From the NCBI GenBank assembly GCA_001899085.1, contig MKVB01000002.1, forward strand, positions 438,945 to 502,944: a stretch of 64,000 nucleotides of DNA, in the 5' to 3' direction. The translations under genes and the position numbers were made by a program. The notes below the pieces were generated by a model. It ran no database searches, had not been told where the DNA came from, and saw only the letters and a list, made by a program, of their open reading frames with translations. Shown one piece after another: positions 3,350 to 33,816 of this stretch (position 1 is its first letter; every line of letters starts with the position of its first letter). This stretch comes from Devosia sp. 66-14 (lineage in GTDB: Bacteria > Pseudomonadota > Alphaproteobacteria > Rhizobiales > Devosiaceae).

Positions 3350-3898
3350 GTGGCTGAATTCCGGGTCGATCCATTGGTGTGGGGACATGGCCCCAGGGTG
3401 CTGGAGTTGTTTCTCGAGCCCACCTGTCCCTATTCGGGCAAGGCGTTCGGCAAGATCGAGCAGTTGCTCGAGGAGGTGGGCGAGGACAAGCTGACGGTGA
3501 AGATACGACTTCATTCGCAGCCCTGGCACATGTTCTCGCCGGTGATCGTCAGGGCCATCCATGCGGCGGCGAGCCTGCCCGAGGGCAAGGCGGCGGCGAA
3601 GCGGGTGCTGCAGGCGGTCTACGCGCATCGCGACGAGTTCGAGTTCGAACGGCATGCCACCGGACCGAACCGCGACGCCACGCCGAACGACCTGATCCGG
3701 CGCATCGAAGCCTATACCGGGCTCAAGTTGATGCAGGCGTTCGACGAGCCGCAGCTCGACAGATCGACCCGCTGGGACGCACGCTATGCGCGCCAGAACG
3801 GCATCCACGTGTCGCCGAGCTTCATGATCGACGGCATCGTCCAGGCCGATATGAGCAGCGGCGACGAGGTCTCGGCCTGGGCGAAGAAGCTGGGTTAG
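3350..3898 (+). CDS. DsbA-family thioredoxin-fold protein, monocysteine type, cytoplasmic
   Basis: This 182-residue protein has a thioredoxin fold of the DsbA/FrnE type. An N-terminal beta strand leads into C-P-Y-S, where the second cysteine of the usual CxxC is serine. A helical insertion follows, then a C-terminal 'VSPSF' loop matching the cis-proline loop, and a 'DG' turn. No signal peptide is seen, so it should act in the cytoplasm. The GTG at 3350 is chosen because GAGGAGG lies about 8 bp before it. An upstream in-frame TTG at 3317 has no comparable site. With one cysteine it may work as a glutathione-dependent or reductase-like protein rather than a disulfide oxidase. No operon partner is evident. 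Confidence 0.75.
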   Translation: MAEFRVDPLVWGHGPRVLELFLEPTCPYSGKAFGKIEQLLEEVGEDKLTVKIRLHSQPWHMFSPVIVRAIHAAASLPEGKAAAKRVLQAVYAHRDEFEFERHATGPNRDATPNDLIRRIEAYTGLKLMQAFDEPQLDRSTRWDARYARQNGIHVSPSFMIDGIVQADMSSGDEVSAWAKKLG

Positions 3899-3958
3899 AC
3901 TGGGCGGATCAGCGTAATGCCATCAGGCGAGGCGCAGCGCTCCTGGTTCACCACCGGT

Positions 3959-4049
3959 GTCATTCCCGCGAAGGCGGGAACCTGGTGGGATGCCGCCCCA
4001 CCAGCTACGCCTGAGAGATCCACTGGGTCCCCGCCTTCGCGGGGATGAC
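3959..4049. repeat. Intergenic palindromic repeat, short family, copy 1
   Basis: The outer arms (3959-3980 and 4028-4049, starting GTCATTCCC and ending GGGATGAC) match as inverted repeats at about 20 of 22 positions. Each arm is itself a small hairpin with a CCCGC-GAAG-GCGGG core. A second copy of the same design lies at 54326-54409. Similar 'GTCAT-CCCGCGAAGGCGGG' elements are common between genes in alphaproteobacteria. Confidence 0.8.
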
Positions 4050-4111
4050 GCCGTTGGGAGGCCCAAGATCGAACCCGGCCAGGCTTTTCGCGGTGACTTG
4101 CGCAAAAACAA

Positions 4112-4143
4112 AAGGCCGGCCCCGTTTCCCGAGGTCCGGCCTT
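4112..4143 (-). terminator. Intrinsic terminator downstream of the GNAT gene
   Basis: AAGGCCGG at 4112-4119 pairs with CCGGCCTT at 4136-4143. Read on the minus strand, the stem is followed by TTTTGTTTTTG, a classical U-tract. It lies about 120 bp beyond the stop of the minus-strand acetyltransferase gene. It could also slow read-through from the plus-strand DsbA-like gene. Confidence 0.75.
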
Positions 4144-4264
4144 CCACGCCTCCCAGCGTCTTGTCGGGGCGAGGCGCCCCACGTCCGGCAAGTTAGCGGA
4201 GAATTGACGGCGGCGCCCGGTTTGCCGGGTTAACCGGTAAAGTTTGAGTTAATCGGGTAAGGCC

Positions 4265-4717
4265 TCAGTAAGTCTTCATCTTGAGGTGGAGGATGCCGGA
4301 GCCATCGTCGAAGGGCTCGCCGAAGGCGACGAAACCGAGCTTCTCGTAGACGGCGAGCTTGTCGTGCTGGGCGGTGAGATAGAAGCGGGTCTCGCCCCTG
4401 GCGCGCGCCAGCTCCATGGCGTGGTGCAGCAGTTTGGTCGAGATGCCCTGGCCGCGCCAGAACTGCGAGACCACGACGCGGCCGATCTTGACGTGCTCGG
4501 CACCCCAGATGAGGCGCAGCGTGCCCACGACATTGCCGGCGCCGATCGCCACCACATGGGTGGCGGCGAGGTCGTCGGCATCGAACTCCTCGGCCTCGGG
4601 GATCTGCTGCTCGATGACGAAGGCCTCGCGGCGCAGCGCGAAGGCGGCGTTGGCGAGGGTGGAGAACACCGGGACGGTGAGAAGCGTGATGTCGGGCATG
4701 GCGGGAACTGAGCACAT
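4265..4717 (-). CDS. GNAT-family N-acetyltransferase
   Basis: The 150-residue protein has the GCN5 acetyltransferase layout. Motif A is 'VSQFWRGQGISTKLLHHAM', with the pyrophosphate-binding Q/R-x-x-G-x-G/A pattern near residues 80-90. The C-terminal 'YEKLGFVAFGEPF' is motif B. The reaction is acetyl transfer from acetyl-CoA to an amine, and the substrate is unknown. The resemblance to ElaA-like small GNATs is loose. An ATG at 4717 preceded by GGAGGG at 6-7 bp is preferred over the ATG at 4699, which has no ribosome site. The gene lies just downstream of the metallopeptidase gene on the same strand (33-bp gap), so co-transcription is likely. Confidence 0.8.
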   Translation of the reverse strand: MCSVPAMPDITLLTVPVFSTLANAAFALRREAFVIEQQIPEAEEFDADDLAATHVVAIGAGNVVGTLRLIWGAEHVKIGRVVVSQFWRGQGISTKLLHHAMELARARGETRFYLTAQHDKLAVYEKLGFVAFGEPFDDGSGILHLKMKTY

Positions 4718-4749
4718 TGCCGCGCCCTCCACCACCCCGTGGGGGACGT

Positions 4750-5865
4750 TCAGGCCGCGGGGGCGTTGATCGGGATCGGGCCGGCAGGGCCCGGAACGGT
4801 CCATTGCACGGCGCCGGCCTCGCGCACCAGGCGGGCGATGAAGCCCAGCTTGGCGATCACCTCGGGGGTGAGGACGAAGGGGTAGGCGTCATGCTGGCCC
4901 ACGGCGCGGTTGAGATTGTTCATCAGCGAGGCAAGCGGGATCCAGTTCTCGATCAGCTCGTCGATATCGGCGCTGCCATAGGGATCGTAGTCGAGCCGGG
5001 CGGTGAGTTCGCCGGTCCGGTCGACCGCCGGGCGGAGGTTCACTCCGAACGAGGCGGCCATCTCGGTGGTGTCGACGAGGTGCAGGTAATGCGCGAAGGT
5101 TTCGGCGAAATCCTCCCAGGGATGCGAGGTGGCATAGGCCGAGATGTAGGCCTGCTGCCAGCCGGCGGGGGCGCCATCGACATAGTGGGCCTGCAGCGCA
5201 CCGGCGTAGTCGGCGCTCTCGTCGCCGAACAGGGCGCGGAACTCCTCATGCGCCGGGCGGCCGCCGACCAGCAGGTCCCAGTAATAGTGGCCGATCTCGT
5301 GGCGGAAATGGCCGAGCAGCGTGCGGTAGGGCTCGTTGAACTGGGTGCGGCGATATTCGCGCGCCGCGTCGTCGGCTTCCTTCAACGCCAGCGTGATGAC
5401 GCCGCTATCGTGCCCGGTGAGCACCGGAGCCGGCGCGATCTCCTCGTTCAGGAACTGGAAGCTCAGGCCATGCACCGGGTCCTCGTTGCGGGTGGCGAGC
5501 GGCAGGTGCAGGCGCAGCAGCGAGTAGATCAGGCGTTTCTTGGCCCGTTCGATCACCTGCCAGCGGCCGAGATCGACCGGGTTCCGGATGTCGGGGATCA
5601 TGCCGTTATGCCGGCACGCGAGGCAATAGGGATCGCCGCCCGGGGCGTGCAGCAGCAGCCAGTTGCAGGCGCCGTGCGCGGCATTGGCGCAATAGACGAA
5701 GGAGCGGTTGGCGGCGGCCGGGGCCGTCCAGATACTCGGCCCGCCATCGAGCGAAAACAGGTTGTTGGTGAGCGGCCCATAGCCGAGCGCGCGCCCGCAG
5801 CGCTCGCAGCGGGTGTTCTCGAAATAGAGCAGGTGACCGCAATGGTCGCAGCGGAAGAGCTTCAT
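4750..5865 (-). CDS. Putative zinc-binding metallopeptidase with N-terminal zinc ribbon
   Basis: The 371-residue protein opens with two CxxC pairs (C-D-H-C and C-E-R-C within the first 25 residues), a zinc ribbon. Another Cys-rich segment (CNW, C-L-A-C) lies near residues 85-110. A zincin motif HEIGH is at about residue 189, followed downstream by 'WEDFAETFAHYLH', which probably supplies the third zinc ligand. This is the layout of the uncharacterised COG4307 family of putative zinc metallopeptidases, whose substrate is not known. No signal peptide is present, so it is cytoplasmic. The ATG at 5865 is chosen because the zinc ribbon begins there. The longer N-terminus up to 5958 shows no conserved character. 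Confidence 0.82.
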   Translation of the reverse strand: MKLFRCDHCGHLLYFENTRCERCGRALGYGPLTNNLFSLDGGPSIWTAPAAANRSFVYCANAAHGACNWLLLHAPGGDPYCLACRHNGMIPDIRNPVDLGRWQVIERAKKRLIYSLLRLHLPLATRNEDPVHGLSFQFLNEEIAPAPVLTGHDSGVITLALKEADDAAREYRRTQFNEPYRTLLGHFRHEIGHYYWDLLVGGRPAHEEFRALFGDESADYAGALQAHYVDGAPAGWQQAYISAYATSHPWEDFAETFAHYLHLVDTTEMAASFGVNLRPAVDRTGELTARLDYDPYGSADIDELIENWIPLASLMNNLNRAVGQHDAYPFVLTPEVIAKLGFIARLVREAGAVQWTVPGPAGPIPINAPAA

Positions 5866-5992
5866 GGGGGCTCGTGGGGAGTGACGCGGCTCAACAATGC
5901 CGCCCGATGCCGCGCGGTTCCGCGCGCCATCCCGGAAAATTAACGGCGGGGCGGGCATTGTTCACCCAGTTTCGTGGGACCTGCTGAAGACG

Positions 5993-7030
5993 ATGCGTAC
6001 GCGCCTCAACGAATTGCCGCGATGGCGGGCCTATATCGTCCTGGGGCTGACGCTGGCTGCATTCATAGGGCTGCTGATGCTGGCGCTCGGGCGCGCACCG
6101 GTGGTGCCGGCCGAGGCCGCGACGGCGGCGGCGCCGGAGGGCGATCTCGTCAGTTATCAGCGGATCATCGAGCGGCTGCGCGGCGGTGCCGATTACTACA
6201 CCGCGGCGCACGAGGTGCTGGTGGCCGACGGCTACGGCACGCGCTCGGTGTTCAACTGGCGCACCCCGGCCTGGCCGCTGCTGCTGGCGGCGCTGCCGCC
6301 CGGCGGCGGGCAGGGGGTGCTGGCGGCGCTGGCGCTGGTTGGCCTGCTGCTGGTCTATCGGATGCTGCGCGAGGAGGGCGGGGTGCTGGTCGCGGTGCTG
6401 TCGATGCTGGCGGCGGGCATCAGCCTGGGCGGCATCGTCGCGCCGGCGAGCGTGGTGTTCTCGGAAGTGGCGGCGGGAACGCTGATCCTGATCTCGGTCG
6501 CTGCCTACGGCAATGGCTGGCGGCTCGCCGGCCTCCTGGTGGGGCTGCTGGCGCTCTTCCTGCGCGAACTGGCGGCGCCCTATGTGGTCGTCGCGATCGT
6601 CCTGGCGCTGCGGCAGCGGCGCTGGAGCGAGGTGCGGCTCTGGGGGCTCGGGCTTGCTGCCTATGCCACCTATTTCGGCTGGCACTGGTGGATGGTGAGC
6701 CAGCAACTGGGGCCGATGGACCGCGCCTATGGCGATGGCTGGCTGCAGTTCGGCGGTGTCGGTTTCATCCTCGCGACCGCCGGTTTCAACGGGCTGTGGA
6801 GCCTGGGGCCGGTCTGGCTGCCGGCGCTGCTGCTGCCGCTCGGCGTGTTGGGGCTGTGGGCCTGGCCGAAGGGCACGCTGGCGCTGGCGACGGTGGTGGT
6901 GTTCGTCGTGCTGTTCGCCGCGGTGGGCAAACCGTTCAACTTCTACTGGGGCGCGCTCTATACGCCGCTGCTGATGCTCGGGCTGGGGTGGGCGGTGGCG
7001 GCGGTCTGGGAAACGCTGCGGCAACGCTAG
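5993..7030 (+). CDS. Polytopic membrane protein of unknown function
   Basis: This 345-residue protein is not recognised as a named family. It has about eight to nine hydrophobic segments, the first at residues 13-35. A polar periplasmic stretch follows at about residues 40-85, with 'VFNWRTPAWPLLLAAL' before the next segment. The overall pattern resembles GT-C type glycosyltransferases or DUF2029-like proteins that use lipid-linked sugars. No DxD-type loop can be named with confidence. The ATG at 5993 is preferred because the protein then begins with a short basic region and the first membrane helix. It is divergent from the metallopeptidase gene and ends at a large palindrome. Confidence 0.6.
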   Translation: MRTRLNELPRWRAYIVLGLTLAAFIGLLMLALGRAPVVPAEAATAAAPEGDLVSYQRIIERLRGGADYYTAAHEVLVADGYGTRSVFNWRTPAWPLLLAALPPGGGQGVLAALALVGLLLVYRMLREEGGVLVAVLSMLAAGISLGGIVAPASVVFSEVAAGTLILISVAAYGNGWRLAGLLVGLLALFLRELAAPYVVVAIVLALRQRRWSEVRLWGLGLAAYATYFGWHWWMVSQQLGPMDRAYGDGWLQFGGVGFILATAGFNGLWSLGPVWLPALLLPLGVLGLWAWPKGTLALATVVVFVVLFAAVGKPFNFYWGALYTPLLMLGLGWAVAAVWETLRQR

Positions 7031-7041
7031 CACCGAGCGTG

Positions 7042-7192
7042 GGGCCACCCCACCCTTAATCCCTCCCCACAAGGGGGAGGGAGACGCGAGAACCGAGACC
7101 GTGCGGCTGTCGCCTCCCTCTCCCTTGTGGGGAGGGCAGCAAAGCTTGCGAGCGAGGCGAGCTAGCGTCGCTGGGTGGGGCGCCCCCACGCT
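7042..7192. repeat. Large intergenic palindrome, copy A
   Basis: Inverted arms built around CCTCCCCACAAGGGGGAGG (7064-7082) and its complement (7115-7139) lie between outer GGGGTGG-type arms. The right flank adds a 'AGCAAAGCTTGCGAGCGAGGCG' type extension with minor symmetry. It sits between two convergent genes and could form a long hairpin. It is one of at least ten related copies in the window and closest to the copies at 15978 and 51075. Confidence 0.8.
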
Positions 7193-7198
7193 CCGTCC

Positions 7199-9334
7199 TC
7201 AAACACTCCCGATCGTCTTCAGCCGTACCCGCGGGTGCACTTCGTTCTGGCTCATGACCACGGTTTGCGGCCGGAAGCGTTCGATGATGGCGCGGACATG
7301 CGGGCGGATGCCGGGGCTGGTGATGAGGACGGGGATTTCGCCCATCTGGGCGGCGTTCTCGAACCCCTGCTGGATGCCGACGATGAACTGCTGCAGCCGC
7401 GACGGGGCCATGGCGAGATGGCGGTCATTGCCGTCGCCGACCAGCGCCTCGGCGAAATCACGCTCCCACTGTGGCGACAGGGTAAGCAGCGGCAGGTTGC
7501 CGTCGGGCCCGAGATTGGCGGCGCAGAGCTGGCGGGCGAGGCGCGAACGCACATGCTCGGCAATGGTCTGGGCGGTGCGGCCCGGCCCGGCGATCTCGGC
7601 GATGCCTTCGAGAATGGTGGGCAGGTCGCGGATCGAGATGCGCTCGATCAGCAGGGTCTGCAGCACGCGCTGCACGCCCGAGACCGAGATCTGGCTGGGG
7701 ATGATGTCCTCGACCAGTTTCTGCTGGTCCTTGGTGAGCCCGGCGAGCAGCGACTGCACGTTGGCGTAGCTGAGGAGGTCCGAGACATTGGCCTTCAGCA
7801 CTTCGGTGAGGTGGGTCGAGATCACCGTCGAGGGATCGATGATCGAGTAGCCGCGGAGCTCGGCTTCATCGCGCAAGGCCGGCTCGATCCAGGTGGCGGG
7901 CAGCCCGAAGGTCGGCTCGGTGGTGTGGACGCCGGGCAGGTTGATCTCCTTGCCCATCGGATCCATCACCATCAACTGGTGCGCGAAGATCTGGCCGCGG
8001 CCGGCATCGACCTCCTTGATCTTGACCTTGTAGTCGTTGGGCTCGAGCTGCATGTTGTCGAGGATGCGGACCGGCGGCATGATGAAGCCGAGCTCGGTGG
8101 CGAGCTGCCGGCGCAGGGCCTTGATCTGCTCGGTGAGCCGATCGGTGCCGGTATCGTCTTCCTTGACCAGCGACAGAAGGCCATAGCCGAGTTCGAGCTT
8201 GAGCTCGTCGATCTTGAGGCTGTCGGAAATCGGGGCTTCCTGCGACAGCGGGCTGCCGCCGGCCTGGGCCTGCGCCATGGCCGCCTCGACGATGGCCCGA
8301 TCCGCGGTTGCCGCATTGCGCTTGCCCGACTTGAAGGCGAGCCAGCCGACACCGCCGGCGAGCGCCAGGAACGGGATGATCGGCATGCCCGGCAGCAGCG
8401 CCAATGCGCCGATCACGGCAGCCGACATGCCGAGCGCCTTGGGATAGCCGGTGAACTGGGCGACCAGCGCCTTGTCGGCCGAACCGGTGACGCCGGCCTT
8501 GGAGACCAGGAGGCCCGCGGCGGTCGAGACGATCAGCGCCGGGATCTGGCTGACGAGGCCGTCGCCGACGGTGAGCAGGGTGTAGTTGTGGCCGGCTTCG
8601 GCGAAGCTCAGGCCTTCCTGCAGCATGCCGATGATGAGGCCGGCGATGATGTTGATGAAGGTGATCAGGAGGCCGGCAATGGCGTCGCCGCGCACGAACT
8701 TCGATGCACCATCCATGTTGCCGAAGAAGGCGCTCTCGGCTTCGAGGTTTTCGCGGCGCTTCCTGGCCGTGGTTTCGTCGATCAGGCCGGCCGAGAGGTC
8801 GGCGTCGATCGCCATCTGCTTGCCCGGCATGGCGTCGAGGTTGAAGCGCGCCGCGACTTCGGCGATGCGGCCCGAGCCCTTGGTGATGACGATGAAGTTG
8901 ACGATGATCAGGATGGCGAAGACGACGACGCCGATGACGAAGTTGCCGCGCATCACGAAATTGCCGAACGCCTCGATGACGTGACCGGCGGCATCGGTGC
9001 CGTTATGGCCCTCGGCGAGGATCAGGCGGGTGGTGGCGAGGTTCAGCGCCAATCGCAACATGGCGGCGATCAGCAGCACGGTTGGAAAGGCCGAGAATTC
9101 CAGCGGCGTCTGGATGAACAGCGCCGTCATCAGGATCAGCACCGAGAAGACGATCGAAATCGCCAGCAACAGGTCGAGCAGCAGCGGTGGCAGCGGCACG
9201 ATGAGGACGACGATGATCCCCATGATGCCGATGGCAAGCCCGATATCGGACGTGCCGAACGACTTCCACAGCCCCTGGATCGAGAAGGTCGGCAGCTTCA
9301 GGCCGGATGGGCCGGGGGCGGAGAGATCAGCCAC
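7199..9334 (-). CDS. flhA: Flagellar export gate protein FlhA
   Basis: FlhA is the large inner-membrane subunit of the flagellar type III export gate. Its membrane half conducts protons, and its cytoplasmic half forms a nonameric ring that docks chaperone-substrate complexes. The 711-residue length is right for the family. The first roughly 330 residues hold eight hydrophobic segments, including the FHIPEP-family signature 'RLALNLATTRLIL' near residues 93-105. A soluble domain of about 350 residues follows. It is the last gene of the minus-strand run fliF-fliG-fliH-fliN-flbD-flhA, separated from flbD by a 170-bp gap filled by a palindrome. It may therefore have reduced or separate expression. 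Confidence 0.97.
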   Translation of the reverse strand: MADLSAPGPSGLKLPTFSIQGLWKSFGTSDIGLAIGIMGIIVVLIVPLPPLLLDLLLAISIVFSVLILMTALFIQTPLEFSAFPTVLLIAAMLRLALNLATTRLILAEGHNGTDAAGHVIEAFGNFVMRGNFVIGVVVFAILIIVNFIVITKGSGRIAEVAARFNLDAMPGKQMAIDADLSAGLIDETTARKRRENLEAESAFFGNMDGASKFVRGDAIAGLLITFINIIAGLIIGMLQEGLSFAEAGHNYTLLTVGDGLVSQIPALIVSTAAGLLVSKAGVTGSADKALVAQFTGYPKALGMSAAVIGALALLPGMPIIPFLALAGGVGWLAFKSGKRNAATADRAIVEAAMAQAQAGGSPLSQEAPISDSLKIDELKLELGYGLLSLVKEDDTGTDRLTEQIKALRRQLATELGFIMPPVRILDNMQLEPNDYKVKIKEVDAGRGQIFAHQLMVMDPMGKEINLPGVHTTEPTFGLPATWIEPALRDEAELRGYSIIDPSTVISTHLTEVLKANVSDLLSYANVQSLLAGLTKDQQKLVEDIIPSQISVSGVQRVLQTLLIERISIRDLPTILEGIAEIAGPGRTAQTIAEHVRSRLARQLCAANLGPDGNLPLLTLSPQWERDFAEALVGDGNDRHLAMAPSRLQQFIVGIQQGFENAAQMGEIPVLITSPGIRPHVRAIIERFRPQTVVMSQNEVHPRVRLKTIGSV

Positions 9335-26692: not shown

Positions 26693-26707
26693 GAACATAA
26701 AGTGAAC
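26693..26707 (+). promoter_or_regulatory. LexA (SOS) box overlapping the start of the radical SAM/UDGX operon
   Basis: GAAC-ATAAAGT-GAAC is a perfect GAAC-N7-GAAC, the LexA operator of alphaproteobacteria (GTTC-N7-GTTC on the other strand). It ends 2 bp before the ATG at 26710. There is no ribosome site between them, so the transcript may be leaderless or nearly so. Repression by LexA would block initiation, linking the operon to DNA damage. Confidence 0.75.
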
Positions 26708-26709
26708 AC

Positions 26710-27951
26710 ATGACTCGCCTGACGCTCCAGCGAAAGCTGTCGATCCTTTCGGATGCGGCCAAATACGATGCCTCCTGCGCCTCCAGCGGTTCGGTGAAAC
26801 GCTCGAGCCTCGCAACCGGCGGCATCGGCTCGACCGAGGGCAGCGGCATCTGCCATTCCTATGCGCCGGATGGCCGCTGCATCTCGCTGCTGAAGCTGCT
26901 GCTGACCAATTTCTGCGTCTATGACTGCATCTACTGCGTCAACCGTTCGTCCTCGAACGTGCCGCGAGCCCGCTTTTCGGTGGAGGAAGTGGTCGGGCTG
27001 ACGCTCGATTTCTACAAGCGCAACTATATCGAGGGGCTGTTCCTGTCGTCGGGGATCATCCGCTCGCCCGACTACACCATGGAGGAGATGGTGCGGGTGG
27101 CGCGAACGCTGCGCGAGACGCACCGTTTCGGCGGCTATATCCACCTGAAGGTCATCCCCAACGCGTCCCCGGAACTGCTGGCCGAGGCGGGGCTCCATGC
27201 CGACCGGCTGTCGACCAATATCGAGCTGCCCACCGACGTGAGCCTCGAAGCGCTGGCGCCGGAGAAAAAGCCGAGCGCCATCCGCACGGCGATGGCGCAT
27301 ATCGAGGCAAAGCGCGAAGAGAGCCGGCCGGAGGGCAAGATCGAAGGCAAGCGCAAGCCGACCCGGCTGGCGCCGGCCGGGCAATCGACCCAGATGATCG
27401 TCGGCGCCGACCGGGCGACGGACGCCACCATCCTCGGCCGCAGCGCGGCGCTTTATTCGGGCTATGGGCTGAAGCGCGTCTACTACTCGGCGTTCTCGCC
27501 GATCCCCGATGCCAGCTCGAAACTGCCGCTGGCGCCGCCGCCGCTGCTGCGCGAGCACCGGCTGTACCAGGCGGATTGGCTGATCCGGTTCTACGGCTTC
27601 AATGTCGAGGAGATCGTTTCGGGCGGTGCAGACGGGCTGCTCGATTTGAAGCTCGATCCCAAACTCGCCTGGGCGCTGCGGCACCGGGGGGCGTTTCCGG
27701 TGGATGTGAACCGGGCGGCGCGCGAGACGCTGCTGCGGGTGCCGGGGCTGGGAGTGCGGGTGGTCGACCGCATTGTCACGTCGCGCCGGCATCACCGGCT
27801 GACGCTGGCGGACCTGGCCCGGATGGCCGGCTCGATCGACAAGGTCAGGCCGTTCGTCGAGGCCGCCGACTGGACGCCGGGCGGGCTGACCGACGATGCG
27901 GGATTGCGGCGCAAGCTCACCCCGGCGCCCCGGCAACTGGAACTGTTCTGA
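26710..27951 (+). CDS. Putative DNA modification/repair radical SAM protein
   Basis: The 413-residue protein matches the family known as putative DNA modification/repair radical SAM protein, usually paired with a UDG-family gene. The start has 'KLSILSDAAKYDASCASSGS'. The radical SAM cysteines are C69, C73 and C76 in 'CVYDCIYC'. 'GLFLSSGI' follows the cluster as the SAM-binding GGE-like region. The C-terminal part has a helix-hairpin-helix 'LLRVPGLGVRVVDRIV' near residue 340, which would bind DNA non-specifically. It would use SAM and a 4Fe-4S cluster to generate a radical on an unknown nucleic-acid substrate. Its stop overlaps the next ATG by one base, and a LexA box lies directly upstream. 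Confidence 0.87.
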   Translation: MTRLTLQRKLSILSDAAKYDASCASSGSVKRSSLATGGIGSTEGSGICHSYAPDGRCISLLKLLLTNFCVYDCIYCVNRSSSNVPRARFSVEEVVGLTLDFYKRNYIEGLFLSSGIIRSPDYTMEEMVRVARTLRETHRFGGYIHLKVIPNASPELLAEAGLHADRLSTNIELPTDVSLEALAPEKKPSAIRTAMAHIEAKREESRPEGKIEGKRKPTRLAPAGQSTQMIVGADRATDATILGRSAALYSGYGLKRVYYSAFSPIPDASSKLPLAPPPLLREHRLYQADWLIRFYGFNVEEIVSGGADGLLDLKLDPKLAWALRHRGAFPVDVNRAARETLLRVPGLGVRVVDRIVTSRRHHRLTLADLARMAGSIDKVRPFVEAADWTPGGLTDDAGLRRKLTPAPRQLELF

Positions 27952-29387
27952 TGCGCTCGGTGCGGCTCACCGCTCGCAACGATTTCGAGCAGTGGCGGGC
28001 GGCGGCGCGGCGGCTGCTGCTCGATGCGGTGCCGCCGGACGAAGTGGTGTGGCTCGACCCCTCGGCGCCGCATGATCTGTTCGTCACCGAGAGCGCCCTC
28101 GCCGAGGTCACCGAGCGCAAGGTCGGGGTGGTGCCGCAACGGTTCATCGACTGGGCCGAAGCGGGGATCTGCCACAGCGATCCGGAGCGTTTCGCGCTGC
28201 TCTATCGGCTGCTGTGGCGGCTGCAGAAGGACAGGGGGCTGATGGAGGCGCGGTCGGATCCGGATGTCGGCCGGCTCGACCGGCGGGTCGCGGCCGTGCG
28301 GCGCGACGCGCACAAGCTCAAGGCGTTCGTGCGGTTCAAGTCGATCGCCGACGATTCCGGGCTCGAGCGGTTCGTCGCCTGGTTCGAGCCGGAGCACTAC
28401 GTGCTGGAGCGGGTGGCGCCGTTCTTCGTCCGGCGCTTCACCGGCATGATGTGGGCGATCGTCACGCCGTATCGATCAGTGTTCTGGGATGGCGACAGCC
28501 TGGAGTTCGGACCGGGCGGGCACAAGGCCGATGTGCCGGCCGAGGACGCGATGGAGGCAGCATGGAAGAGCTATTTCGCGTCGATCTTCAATCCGGCGCG
28601 GCTCAAGGTGGCGATGATGAAATCGGAGATGCCGGTCAAATACTGGCGCAACCTGCCCGAGGCCGAACTCATTCCTTCGCTGATACGCGGCGCCAGGGCC
28701 GCGGAGGCGGAAATGATCGAGCGGCAGGCCAGTATCCCGCCATCACGGCACGTTCGGCAGGCCGAGCGACAAGCCGACGACGTGGCGCCCGAGGTCGAGA
28801 TCGGCTCGCTGAGCGCGGCGCGCGACGCGATCGAGGGGTGTCGGCGCTGCCCGCTTTACGAGATGGCGACGCAGGCGGTGTTCGGTGAGGGCCCCGCTCA
28901 TGCCGAGGTGATGTTCGTCGGCGAGCAACCGGGCGACCAGGAGGATCTGGCGGGCAAGCCGTTCGTCGGACCGGCCGGCAAGGTGTTCGATGCGGCAATG
29001 GCCGAGGCGGGGATCGACCGGGAGCGGGCCTATGTCACCAACGCGGTAAAGCACTTCAAGTTCGTGCCGCGCGGCAAGAAGCGGCTGCACCAGCGCCCCA
29101 ACATGGGTGAGGTGAAGGCGTGCCGGTTCTGGCTCGATCTCGAGCGGGAATTCGTCAAGCCGAGCCTGATCGTGGCGCTGGGCGCCACGGCGGTCGCGAG
29201 CCTCACGGGCAGCGGCACGGCGCTCAGCGCGGTACGCGGCAAGCTCACCGAGCTGGCCGACGGCACCCGCATGTTCGCCACGGTGCATCCGTCATACCTG
29301 CTGCGCATGCCGGACCGGGCGGAGGCCGAACGGGAGCGGGCGCGGTTCGTCGAAGACCTGCGACAGGTCGGACGGCTGCTGGGGTGA
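27951..29387 (+). CDS. DUF4130 domain fused to a UDGX-like uracil-DNA glycosylase
   Basis: The 478-residue protein has an N-terminal DUF4130-type domain (about 1-245) of unknown role, a short linker and a C-terminal uracil-DNA glycosylase domain (about 285-478). The latter has motif A GEQPGDQED (324-332) with 'PFVGPAGKVFD', Cys297/Cys300 and Cys391 as probable Fe-S ligands (a fourth was not identified), 'TNAVKHFKF' and the motif HPSYLL (446-451). At 376-381 it has KKRLHQ, matching the KRRIHQ-type R-loop of mycobacterial UDGX. In UDGX the histidine attacks the sugar after base removal and locks the enzyme covalently on DNA. His380 is the equivalent here. It is co-transcribed with the radical SAM gene (TGATG overlap) under a LexA box. 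Confidence 0.85.
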   Translation: MRSVRLTARNDFEQWRAAARRLLLDAVPPDEVVWLDPSAPHDLFVTESALAEVTERKVGVVPQRFIDWAEAGICHSDPERFALLYRLLWRLQKDRGLMEARSDPDVGRLDRRVAAVRRDAHKLKAFVRFKSIADDSGLERFVAWFEPEHYVLERVAPFFVRRFTGMMWAIVTPYRSVFWDGDSLEFGPGGHKADVPAEDAMEAAWKSYFASIFNPARLKVAMMKSEMPVKYWRNLPEAELIPSLIRGARAAEAEMIERQASIPPSRHVRQAERQADDVAPEVEIGSLSAARDAIEGCRRCPLYEMATQAVFGEGPAHAEVMFVGEQPGDQEDLAGKPFVGPAGKVFDAAMAEAGIDRERAYVTNAVKHFKFVPRGKKRLHQRPNMGEVKACRFWLDLEREFVKPSLIVALGATAVASLTGSGTALSAVRGKLTELADGTRMFATVHPSYLLRMPDRAEAERERARFVEDLRQVGRLLG

Positions 29388-30975: not shown

Positions 30976-31548
30976 TCAGTCCTTGGCGCGTTCGACGTAG
31001 CTGCCGTCGGCGGTCATCACCACGACCTTGGTGCCGACGCCGATATGGGGCGGAACCATGGTCTTGACGCCGTTGTTGAGCGTCGCCGGCTTGAACGAGG
31101 AAGAGGCGGTCTGGCCCTTCACCACCGGCTCGGTCTCGACGATCTCGAGGGTGACGCGCTGCGGCAGTTCGATCGAGAGCGCCACGCCCTCGAAGGTGCG
31201 GATATAGACTTCCATGCCGTCGGTGAGGTAGGCGGCCTGGTCGCTGACCACGTCTTCGGAGACGGCGATCTGCTCGTAGGTGGTGGGCTCCATGAAGTGG
31301 TAGCCCTCGCCGTCGTGGTAGAGGAACTGGTAGGCACGCTCGTCGACGTCGGCCTTTTCGACCATCTCGACGGTGCGCCAGCTGGCGGCAACCTTCACGC
31401 CGTCCGAGATGCGGCGCATGTCGACCTTGGTCACCGAGTTGCCCTTGCCGGGATGGATATTCTCGGCGACCAGCACGATATAGAGCTTGCCGTCGTCGTG
31501 TTCCACGACGTTGCCCTTGCGCAGCGACGAGGCGATGACCTTGACCAT
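30976..31548 (-). CDS. efp: Translation elongation factor P
   Basis: EF-P enters the ribosomal E site and rescues ribosomes stalled at polyproline. The 190-residue protein has the three-domain layout: KOW-like domain 1 with the modification loop '[11 protein letters not shown]' (target Lys at residue 35), then two OB domains ending '[26 protein letters not shown]'. AAGGAAG precedes the ATG at 31548 by about 8 bp. It is divergent from epmA and epmB, which install (R)-beta-lysine on this lysine. The whole modification system is therefore present except EpmC, which is not in this window. Confidence 0.97.
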
Positions 31549-31690
31549 TAGTTCTTCCTTGTTCAACGGTTGGCGAGGGCCTAGAGAGCGGCAGCAAAAG
31601 GCCGGGCCGAACGCGCTAATCTGATGTATCGGTGCCGCCGATACCCTAATTCCGCGAAAACCGCCAGTCCCGAGCCGAAAGACGTAAGCC

Positions 31691-32761
31691 TTGCCCGCCT
31701 CCCCACCAGTCCCGCCGGTTTCGCCATGGTGGACGCCCTCGGTGCATGCCGACCGGCGCCCGGCGCTGCTGGCGCGCAACCGGATCGAGCTGGCGGTGCG
31801 CAACTACCTCGCAAGCCGCGATTTTCTGTTGGTCGACCCGCCGGGGCTGCAGCGCAGCCCGGGCAACGAAACGCACCTGCATGCCTTTGCCACCACGGCG
31901 ATCGGCAATGACGGGGTGGGCGAGACGCTTTATCTCCACACCTCGCCGGAATTCTCGATGAAGAAGCTCCTCGCGGCGGGCGAGCGGCGGATCGCCAGTT
32001 TCGGCCATGTCTGGCGCAATCGCGAGCGGAGCGCACTGCATCACCCAGAGTTCACCATGCTCGAGTGGTACCGGGCGGGCGAGCCGTACGACGCGGTGAT
32101 CGCCGACTGCGTGGCGCTGCTGCGGCTCGCGGCCGAGACGACAGGGGTCGCGATGCTCAGGTTTCGCGATCGGGAATGCGATCCGTTCGCCGCGCCCGAG
32201 CGGCTGGGTGTGGTCGAGGCGTTTCGGCGCTTTGCCGGGATCGACCTGTTGGCGACGATGGACGCCGAGGGCGAGACCGATGCCGAGGCCCTGGCCGTTG
32301 CGATGCGAGCGGTGGGGCTCGAGGTTCCCAGGGACTATACCTGGTCCTACCTGTTCAGCCGGGTGCTGGTGGAAAAGGTCGAACCTAACCTGGGGCTAGG
32401 GCGGGTGACGGTGCTCGATCGCTACCCGGCGGCCGAAGCGGCGCTGGCGCGGCGGACCCGCGACGATCGGCGGCTGACGGAGCGGTTCGAGCTTTATGGC
32501 TGCGGGGTCGAACTGGCGAACGGCTTCGGCGAGCTCACCGATGCGGCAGAGCAGCGCCGCCGTTTTGCCGCCGAGATGGATGAGAAGCAGCGGCTTTACG
32601 GCGAAGCCTATCCGCTCGATGAAGAACTGCTGGCGGCGCTGCCGCTGATGGACGAAACCAGCGGCGTGGCGCTGGGGTTCGACCGGCTGGTGATGCTGGC
32701 GGTCGGCGCCCGGCGGATCGAGGATGTGCTGTGGGTGCCGGTGGTCGGAGGCGACAGATGA
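31691..32761 (+). CDS. epmA: EF-P--(R)-beta-lysine ligase EpmA
   Basis: EpmA (GenX/PoxA) is a class II lysyl-tRNA synthetase homologue that activates (R)-beta-lysine with ATP and attaches it to the conserved lysine of EF-P. The 356-residue protein consists of the catalytic domain only, lacking the anticodon-binding OB domain, which separates EpmA from LysRS. Motif 2 is seen in '[23 protein letters not shown]' (about 108-130) and motif 3 in '[16 protein letters not shown]' near the end. The TTG at 31691 is the only long start; the ribosome site is weak. Its end overlaps epmB (ATGA). Confidence 0.93.
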
Positions 32762-33816
32762 AGCAGGATCGTGCGCTGCGGACGGCGAAGGACCTGGTTG
32801 CAGCCGGGCTGCTCGATGCCGGGCGACTGGGCGAGGCGGAAGCGGTGGCGAAGCAATACGCCATTGCCGTAACCCCCACCGTGGCCGGGCTGATCGACCG
32901 GGATGACCCGAACGATCCGATTGCGCGGCAGTTCGTGCCTGACCTTGCCGAACTCAGCACGACGCCGGAGGAGCGGGCCGACCCGATCGGCGACCTCTCC
33001 CACTCGCCCGTCGAGGGGATCGTGCATCGCTATCCCGACCGGGTGCTGCTGAAGGCGGTGCATGTCTGCCCGGTCTATTGCCGGTTCTGTTTCCGCCGCG
33101 AGATGGTGGGGCCGGAAGGGCTGGGGACCTTGTCGGCCGAGGCGATGGATGTCGCGATCGGCTATATCGCCACTCATCCCGAAATCTGGGAGGTGATCCT
33201 CACCGGCGGCGATCCGCTGGTGCTGTCGGCGCGGCGGCTCGAGGAGATGATGCTGCGGTTGCGCGACATCGCGCACGTGAAGATCGTGCGCTTCCACAGC
33301 CGGGTGCCGGTGGTGGAGCCCGAGCGGGTCGATGACAAGCTGATTGCGGCGCTCAAGGCCAGCGGCAAGACCACCTATGTGGCGCTGCATGCCAACCACC
33401 CGCGCGAGCTGACGCCGGCGGCGCGGGCGGGGGCGGGGCGGCTGGTCGATGCCGGCGTGGTGATGCTCAGCCAGTCGGTGCTGCTGCGCGGCATCAACGA
33501 CGATCCGGACGTGCTGGCCGAGCTGATGCGGAGCTTCGTCGAGATGCGGGTCAAGCCCTACTACCTGCACCATCCGGACCTGGCGCCGGGCACGGCGCAT
33601 TTCCGGCTGTCGATCGCCGAGGGGCAGGCGCTGGTTCGCGGCCTGCGCGGCCGGGTGTCGGGCCTCTGCCAGCCGACCTATGTGCTCGATATTCCCGGCG
33701 GCTACGGCAAGGCGCCGATCGCGGCGAGCAATGTCGAGGCGACGGGCGAGGGTGAATATGCCGTGTCGGACTGGCAGGGCGGGGTACACCAGTATCCTCC
33801 GGCGGGGAGCTACTAG
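32758..33816 (+). CDS. epmB: L-lysine 2,3-aminomutase EpmB (EF-P beta-lysylation)
   Basis: EpmB is a radical SAM, PLP-dependent enzyme that converts (S)-alpha-lysine to (R)-beta-lysine for EpmA. The 352-residue protein has the cluster motif C-P-V-Y-C-R-F-C at about residues 104-111. 'EVILTGGDPLVLS' follows as the GGE-like SAM region, with the PLP-lysine region in the C-terminal third ('GGYGKAPI', the lysine within G-x-G-K). The length fits the short EpmB type rather than catabolic KamA. Translation is coupled to epmA through a 4-bp overlap. It ends just before a large palindrome. Confidence 0.94.
   Translation: MKQDRALRTAKDLVAAGLLDAGRLGEAEAVAKQYAIAVTPTVAGLIDRDDPNDPIARQFVPDLAELSTTPEERADPIGDLSHSPVEGIVHRYPDRVLLKAVHVCPVYCRFCFRREMVGPEGLGTLSAEAMDVAIGYIATHPEIWEVILTGGDPLVLSARRLEEMMLRLRDIAHVKIVRFHSRVPVVEPERVDDKLIAALKASGKTTYVALHANHPRELTPAARAGAGRLVDAGVVMLSQSVLLRGINDDPDVLAELMRSFVEMRVKPYYLHHPDLAPGTAHFRLSIAEGQALVRGLRGRVSGLCQPTYVLDIPGGYGKAPIAASNVEATGEGEYAVSDWQGGVHQYPPAGSY

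Follow-up and report, generated by a model that had tools for sequence, protein, structure and literature searches.

A radical SAM gene and a DUF4130–UdgX fusion gene behind a LexA box in Devosia sp. 66-14

Described relatives of the Devosia locus

UdgX of Mycobacterium smegmatis (crystal structures 6AIL and 6AJO) is described in passages of PMC10359453 as a 4Fe-4S protein with R107 and H109 as its signature, and an active UdgX from B. diazoefficiens is cited there. A related domain was examined in a stretch of 64,000 nucleotides from Devosia sp. 66-14 (contig MKVB01000002.1, positions 438,945 to 502,944; hereafter the window), in which a gene for a radical S-adenosylmethionine (SAM) protein is followed by a gene for a fusion of DUF4130 with a UdgX-type uracil-DNA glycosylase (UDG). 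The two UdgX domains share motif A (GEQPG), the R-loop with its Arg and His, motif B (HPSxLLR) and three cysteines, and are 46-51% identical in structural alignments. The M. smegmatis crystal chain is UdgX alone (229 amino acids), whereas the Devosia domain forms the C-terminal half of a fusion, and a radical SAM gene and a LexA box adjoin it.

The combination of these families is on record. The NCBIfam models TIGR03914, TIGR03915 and TIGR03916, whose names UDG_fam_dom, SAM_7_link_chp and rSAM_link_UDG already connect them, are all passed here, and no difference was found between this trio and the Devosia locus. Public plasmid records already list both family names next to each other. One of the family names also turns up in two papers, PMC10776899 and PMC13212565. 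DUF4130 is called a "predicted mutagenesis-related enzyme" in a passage of PMC3765255, which links it to radical SAM proteins and uracil DNA glycosylases. According to passages of PMC8565304, the predicted SOS regulons of Bacteroidetes include a COG1573-COG4277 operon with a UDG, and the SOS link of the same operon is cited there for Verrucomicrobia and Alphaproteobacteria. This operon resembles the Devosia locus in its two genes, its UDG and its predicted LexA control, but neither UdgX-type crosslinking nor DUF4130 appears in those passages. The family 4 UDGs of Thermus and Thermotoga share the fold, the CxxC and a later Cys. The two genomic family-4-like rows with which the fusion was compared lack the R-loop and have Ala or Gly at the position of Q326, and one of them, L192, has Cys at that of H368. 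The architecture, from which the initial annotation had derived a possible new repair logic, is already catalogued as the NCBIfam trio, and its SOS link is already published in the passages of PMC8565304. No paper joining UdgX with a radical SAM partner was found in the portions of the open-licence literature that were covered. New here are the inference of crosslinking by the fusion, the histidine ligand, the conservation of the LexA box and the coupling of DUF4130 to the radical SAM protein.

The reading that we favour, and hold to be reasonably probable, is that of a DNA-damage operon of two genes, induced by the SOS response and composed of two modules that cooperate yet can be separated, UdgX on the one hand and the radical SAM–DUF4130 pair on the other. 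It builds on the identity of the domains, the conserved catalytic residues, the LexA box, the linkage of the radical SAM protein with DUF4130 and the optional presence of UdgX, all of them computational observations. The features concerned are listed in Table 1.

Table 1. Features of the radical SAM and fusion genes, with positions in the window
Feature	Position	Strand	Basis
LexA (SOS) box GAACATAAAGTGAAC	26693..26707	+	exact pattern; 2 bases before radical SAM ATG
Radical SAM protein TIGR03916, 413 aa	26710..27951	+	NCBIfam, Pfam, conservation
Fusion N-terminal half, residues 1-238, TIGR03915/DUF4130	27951..28664	+	family models, co-occurrence, decay
Long helix and low-confidence linker, about residues 239-282	28665..28796	+	AlphaFold2 model; predicted local distance difference test (pLDDT) <50 at 261-264, 276-278
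Fusion C-terminal half, about residues 283-478, UdgX-type uracil-DNA glycosylase	28797..29384	+	family models, PDB and fold matches, conservation
Motif A GEQPGDQED, residues 324-332	28920..28946	+	alignment with M. smegmatis UdgX
H368, in NAVKHFKF, probable fourth Fe-S ligand	29052..29054	+	inference
R-loop KKRLH, residues 376-380	29076..29090	+	equivalents: H380 = H109, R378 = R107
Motif B HPSYLLR, residues 446-452	29286..29306	+	sequence

The UdgX domain and its iron-sulfur cluster

The fusion is encoded by a 478-residue open reading frame (ORF) with an ATG start (27951-29387, + strand), exactly as delimited in the initial annotation, and this start shares bases with the stop codon of the radical SAM gene (TGATG). 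A profile scan of genome contigs confirmed 377 stretches, the best 80 of which were used as relative loci. UdgX is carried by 79 of these 80, the remaining one (L063) having DUF4130 without UdgX, and the same class of stop/start overlap was found at 32 of 79. By NCBIfam, residues 8-238 of the fusion match TIGR03915 (206.7 bits; cut-off 112.25), residues 240-473 match TIGR03914, "UdgX family uracil-DNA binding protein" (333.2 bits; cut-off 189.95), and the upstream protein matches TIGR03916 (552.7 bits; cut-off 343.5), the model for a "putative DNA modification/repair radical SAM protein". Pfam detected DUF4130 and UDG on the fusion (PF13566, 129.6 against 27), and Radical_SAM together with a sub-threshold C-terminal helix-hairpin-helix on the upstream protein. 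The closest named relatives are from Devosia (97% over the DUF4130 query). Both the fusion of DUF4130 to a UdgX-like glycosylase and the adjoining radical SAM partner, as proposed in the initial annotation, are thus borne out. A PDB sequence search with DUF4130 gave nothing useful (best E 0.11). In the fold searches with the whole fusion model, UDG-type chains filled the best 50 rows of each, the rows of one search spanning residues 277-478, and the DUF4130 fold is therefore not claimed as new.

M. smegmatis UdgX was matched in the PDB at E 1e-49, with KKRLH aligned under KRRIH and H380 paired with the crosslinking H109. This match, together with scores over the cut-offs of all three NCBIfam models, argues against a chance occurrence of the UdgX motifs. 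The sequences on which the UdgX-like assignment had been founded, GEQPGDQED, KKRLHQ with H380 and HPSYLL, are all present at residues 324-332, 376-381 and 446-451, and the assignment holds by motif, by family model (TIGR03914) and by the predicted structure, which has a UdgX fold with H380 inside the R-loop. E325/Q326 and D329/D332 correspond in the alignment to E52/Q53 and D56/D59 of M. smegmatis UdgX, the roles of these motif A residues being taken from passages of PMC10359453 and PMC10776899. Motif B has Tyr in one Ser/Ala place of HPS(S/A)(L/V)(L/V)R, and fits it at the remaining positions.

Six positions, E325, Q326, N364, R378, H380 and H446, are each retained in all 79 UdgX-bearing relatives, so that the histidine emphasized at the outset is a constant feature of these fusions. 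The 69 UDG rows compared, both fused and free, comprise 67 UdgX rows, all with H380 and R378, and two family-4-like rows, both without them (L192 and L001, the family 4 label being assigned by motif). In the R-loop of a divergent UdgX (L190, genome G114), six extra residues are inserted, ending in TRKH, with the Arg and His columns still there. By analogy with characterised UdgX, the domain would excise uracil, and H380, activated by E325, would attack C1' so that the protein covalently caps the abasic site; the fusion is likely to crosslink covalently to uracil DNA. It is not the sole uracil enzyme of its genome, since two more UDG-superfamily genes (L001 and L003) are located on another contig.

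As to the Fe-S cluster, the cysteines C297, C300 and C391, named as ligands in the initial annotation, are all present, while the fourth ligand, which had been reported as not found, is most likely H368. In the family-4-like L192, NxxKC stands where UdgX has NAVKH (an equivalence drawn by eye, the aligner having put gaps there), and the M. smegmatis UdgX crystal chain contains just three Cys in the 199 residues compared. Furthermore, all three Cys are lost in five of the 79 fused relatives (L053, L054, L056, L079 and L088), two of which have Arg for H368 as against none of the other 74. These observations point to H368 as the ligand; the family-4-like UDG of the Devosia genome itself (L001) has no Cys at this position. 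The six catalytic positions are invariant even in the five Cys-less domains, suggesting that the cluster may be dispensable in these relatives. Four of the five were placed in the UdgX tree, where they cluster together (support 90/80).

Linkage of DUF4130 to the radical SAM protein

The radical SAM protein of TIGR03916 is, we assume, of the COG4277 type. Its CxxxCxxC motif (C69, C73 and C76) was invariant in 53/53 aligned rows, divergent ones included, and so were C23, C48, C57 and H49, these cysteines preceding CxxxCxxC. The invariance of C23, C48 and C57 suggests that they hold an auxiliary Fe-S cluster. The predicted model, which is poor at residues 24-58, was closest to HydE, LipA and BioB in two fold searches, and spore photoproduct lyase (SplB) was not among the best 50 rows of either; the corresponding radical SAM protein is, in contrast, called SplB-like in the passage of PMC3765255.

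Presence of the three families was scored over the curated cut-offs in samples of 200 Pseudomonadota, 61 family and 289 class genomes, which overlap in that G000 is common to all three and seven class positives are also in the phylum sample. Among the 200 Pseudomonadota, the radical SAM protein was matched at E 0.001 in 37 genomes and over the cut-off in 31, and DUF4130 was matched in 32 and over the cut-off in 31, the same 31 genomes in both cases. The 32nd genome with a DUF4130 match, G131, holds a remnant that contains a stop. The family sample gave 17 genomes with the radical SAM protein, 18 with DUF4130 and 24 with UdgX. All 17 radical SAM genomes have both DUF4130 and UdgX, and the odd DUF4130 genome (G020) holds a truncated DUF4130 copy and a 24-residue radical SAM remnant. 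In the class sample, the two families were found in 18 genomes each, 17 of them shared, the exceptions being G297 (85% complete), with a partial radical SAM gene and no DUF4130, and G427, with DUF4130 next to a truncated radical SAM gene. DUF4130 is apparently a dedicated partner of the radical SAM protein.

UdgX is optional to this pair. It was found over the cut-off in 29 of the 200 Pseudomonadota, 23 with the pair and six without (G111, G115, G131, G231, G199 and G214), and in 21 of the 23 it stands in one open frame with DUF4130, the remaining two being split across contigs (G254) or frame-shifted (G215). The pair without UdgX over the cut-off was found in eight of 31 genomes (G083, G106, G134, G142, G159, G243, G250 and G256), and Bacteroides ihuae, a named control, gave matches for the radical SAM protein and DUF4130 and none for UdgX. 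In the Caulobacter control genome, all three families were matched.

The fate of the fusion after loss of the radical SAM gene could be followed in four genomes. G011 has no radical SAM match and an intact fusion frame, in which DUF4130 retains 26 of 49 near-invariant residues (those conserved in 49 or all of the 50 aligned relatives), with H121, E146, N214 and R217 among those lost, and UdgX retains 39 of 39. The 50 rows themselves score 48-49 and 37-39, which is high because the residues were selected on them; the informative point is the contrast within G011. In G111, G115 and G131, also without the radical SAM gene, a full UdgX lies behind DUF4130 remnants, G111 and G131 being near-identical in this region. 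The decay or truncation of DUF4130 beside an intact UdgX in these four genomes indicates that DUF4130 is selected together with the radical SAM protein and UdgX independently of it. In the UdgX tree (69 rows), at least four changes between the fused and free states are forced by well-supported branches.

A candidate for a natural triple fusion (L058) was rejected, because by eye the single open frame is out of frame beyond the radical SAM core. At 3549-6227 of this record the radical SAM gene is apparently frameshifted, with a frame open into DUF4130–UdgX, either by sequencing error or by decay. Where spacers separate the radical SAM and fusion genes, two of sphingomonads hold ORFs unlike each other and one of Xanthomonas holds short ORFs only; a third component of the operon is not put forward.

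Predicted LexA control and proposed joint action of the two modules

Two sites with the exact LexA pattern exist in the window against 1.26 expected, and it is therefore the position of the box, not the count, that is informative. A similar box was found within 200 nt upstream at 51 of the 79 relative loci with a readable radical SAM gene, compared with a background of 16 sites in about 769 kb, or 0.0046 expected per stretch. When the loci were sorted taxonomically by record titles, the box was present at 51 of 53 outside the gamma- and betaproteobacteria; two loci without the exact box (L097 and L102) have by eye a one-mismatch version each. Both Woeseiaceae loci (2/2, gammaproteobacteria) carry the CTGTN8ACAG type of LexA box instead (background 2 in 769 kb), and neither type was found upstream of the radical SAM gene at 23 Lysobacterales loci. 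An inverted repeat, TCTCAN5TGAGA, is located at -29 from the radical SAM start in 16 of these 23 (for instance L062, L066 and L070), and is possibly the site of another regulator. In the Devosia genome, the lexA locus has two boxes and the recA locus has no exact one. From its LexA box, the radical SAM–fusion pair is predicted to be SOS-inducible.

In the favoured two-module operon, the radical SAM protein and DUF4130 would work jointly as one enzyme, conceivably as a physical complex, with DUF4130 as the dedicated substrate-handling or partner domain and, most likely, damaged DNA as the substrate. The fusion and the LexA control would co-locate both modules upon DNA damage, while neither requires the other to exist. 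A stricter dependence is conceivable, in which UdgX anchors itself through H380, for a single use, at uracil or abasic sites and so brings the radical SAM–DUF4130 pair there. The presence of UdgX in 23 of the 31 pair genomes (21 with UdgX and DUF4130 in one frame), the overlapping stop and start codons and the shared LexA box are in accord with such a tether, but the pair without UdgX (8/31), UdgX without the pair (6/200) and the full retention of UdgX once the radical SAM gene is lost indicate modules independent of each other, which weakens the idea of covalent delivery and makes it doubtful. That the fusion, planted under SOS through H380, holds the radical SAM–DUF4130 pair, possibly with its auxiliary cluster at C23/C48/C57, for a new radical DNA repair or modification is unlikely; if true, a suicidal DNA anchor would serve as the landing pad of an enzyme. 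It is quite improbable that the pair repairs or resolves the UdgX–DNA crosslink or the capped abasic site. UdgX adducts do need release, for which a RecA or protease route is proposed in passages of PMC10359453, but the pair and UdgX each occur alone in the same eight and six genomes, and the pair is therefore not dedicated to this task.

Two further alternatives concern the glycosylase itself. It could be an ordinary family 4 UDG with turnover, its R-loop histidine not being the nucleophile, since the fusion also passes the broader family 4 model TIGR00758 (132.4 bits; cut-off 125.3) and its fold is near to family 4. We give this very little credence, because the family 4 signature is GE(A/G)PG without the R-loop whereas the fusion has GEQPG with it, R378 and H380 are kept in 79/79 relatives, and R107/H109 is the UdgX signature in passages of PMC10359453. 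The loss of the Fe-S cysteines in 5/79 relatives might alternatively mean that uracil excision by the UdgX half has ceased in vivo, leaving that half to act only as a DNA-binding module for its partner, but the invariance of the catalytic positions even in those five and the persistence of free UdgX without the pair render this highly improbable.

With UdgX widely wired into a LexA-boxed radical SAM operon, crosslinking, SOS dependence and the radical SAM partner become jointly testable. The decay of DUF4130 in genomes without the radical SAM gene suggests that, beyond the glycosylase alone, DUF4130 is best purified together with the radical SAM protein. Moreover, the fusion may be usable as it stands as a self-labelling reagent for DNA that contains uracil.

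A phage-borne version of the radical SAM and DUF4130 genes is not established. By tblastn, 10 phage records matched the radical SAM protein and four matched DUF4130, and the scan of viral contigs confirmed 2 of 28 stretches with the radical SAM profile and 0 of 47 with the fusion profile. A radical SAM gene followed by free-standing DUF4130 was found in an Acinetobacter record (L195) and a gut record (L197), and by a 239-residue ORF resembling DUF4130 by appearance in another gut record (L196). In L195, filed as "Acinetobacter phage MD-2021a", glyQ, glyS and other housekeeping genes give the contig the look of bacterial chromosome, and the two gut "Bacteriophage sp." records examined are unverified, unannotated entries. 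In L196, a helicase that by eye resembles DinG/Rad3 follows the two genes at 6094-8475 and could be an additional partner. Bacteroides phage BKO1-TP1 (PQ571268.1, hit H51) has an annotated DUF4130 near the record end, either at a prophage junction or as cargo.

Downstream in the window, at 30979-33816, the gene for elongation factor P lies together with an ORF that by eye resembles lysyl-tRNA synthetase (31691-32761) and another radical SAM ORF with a sub-threshold match to lysine-2,3-aminomutase, in what looks like a cluster for the modification of elongation factor P.

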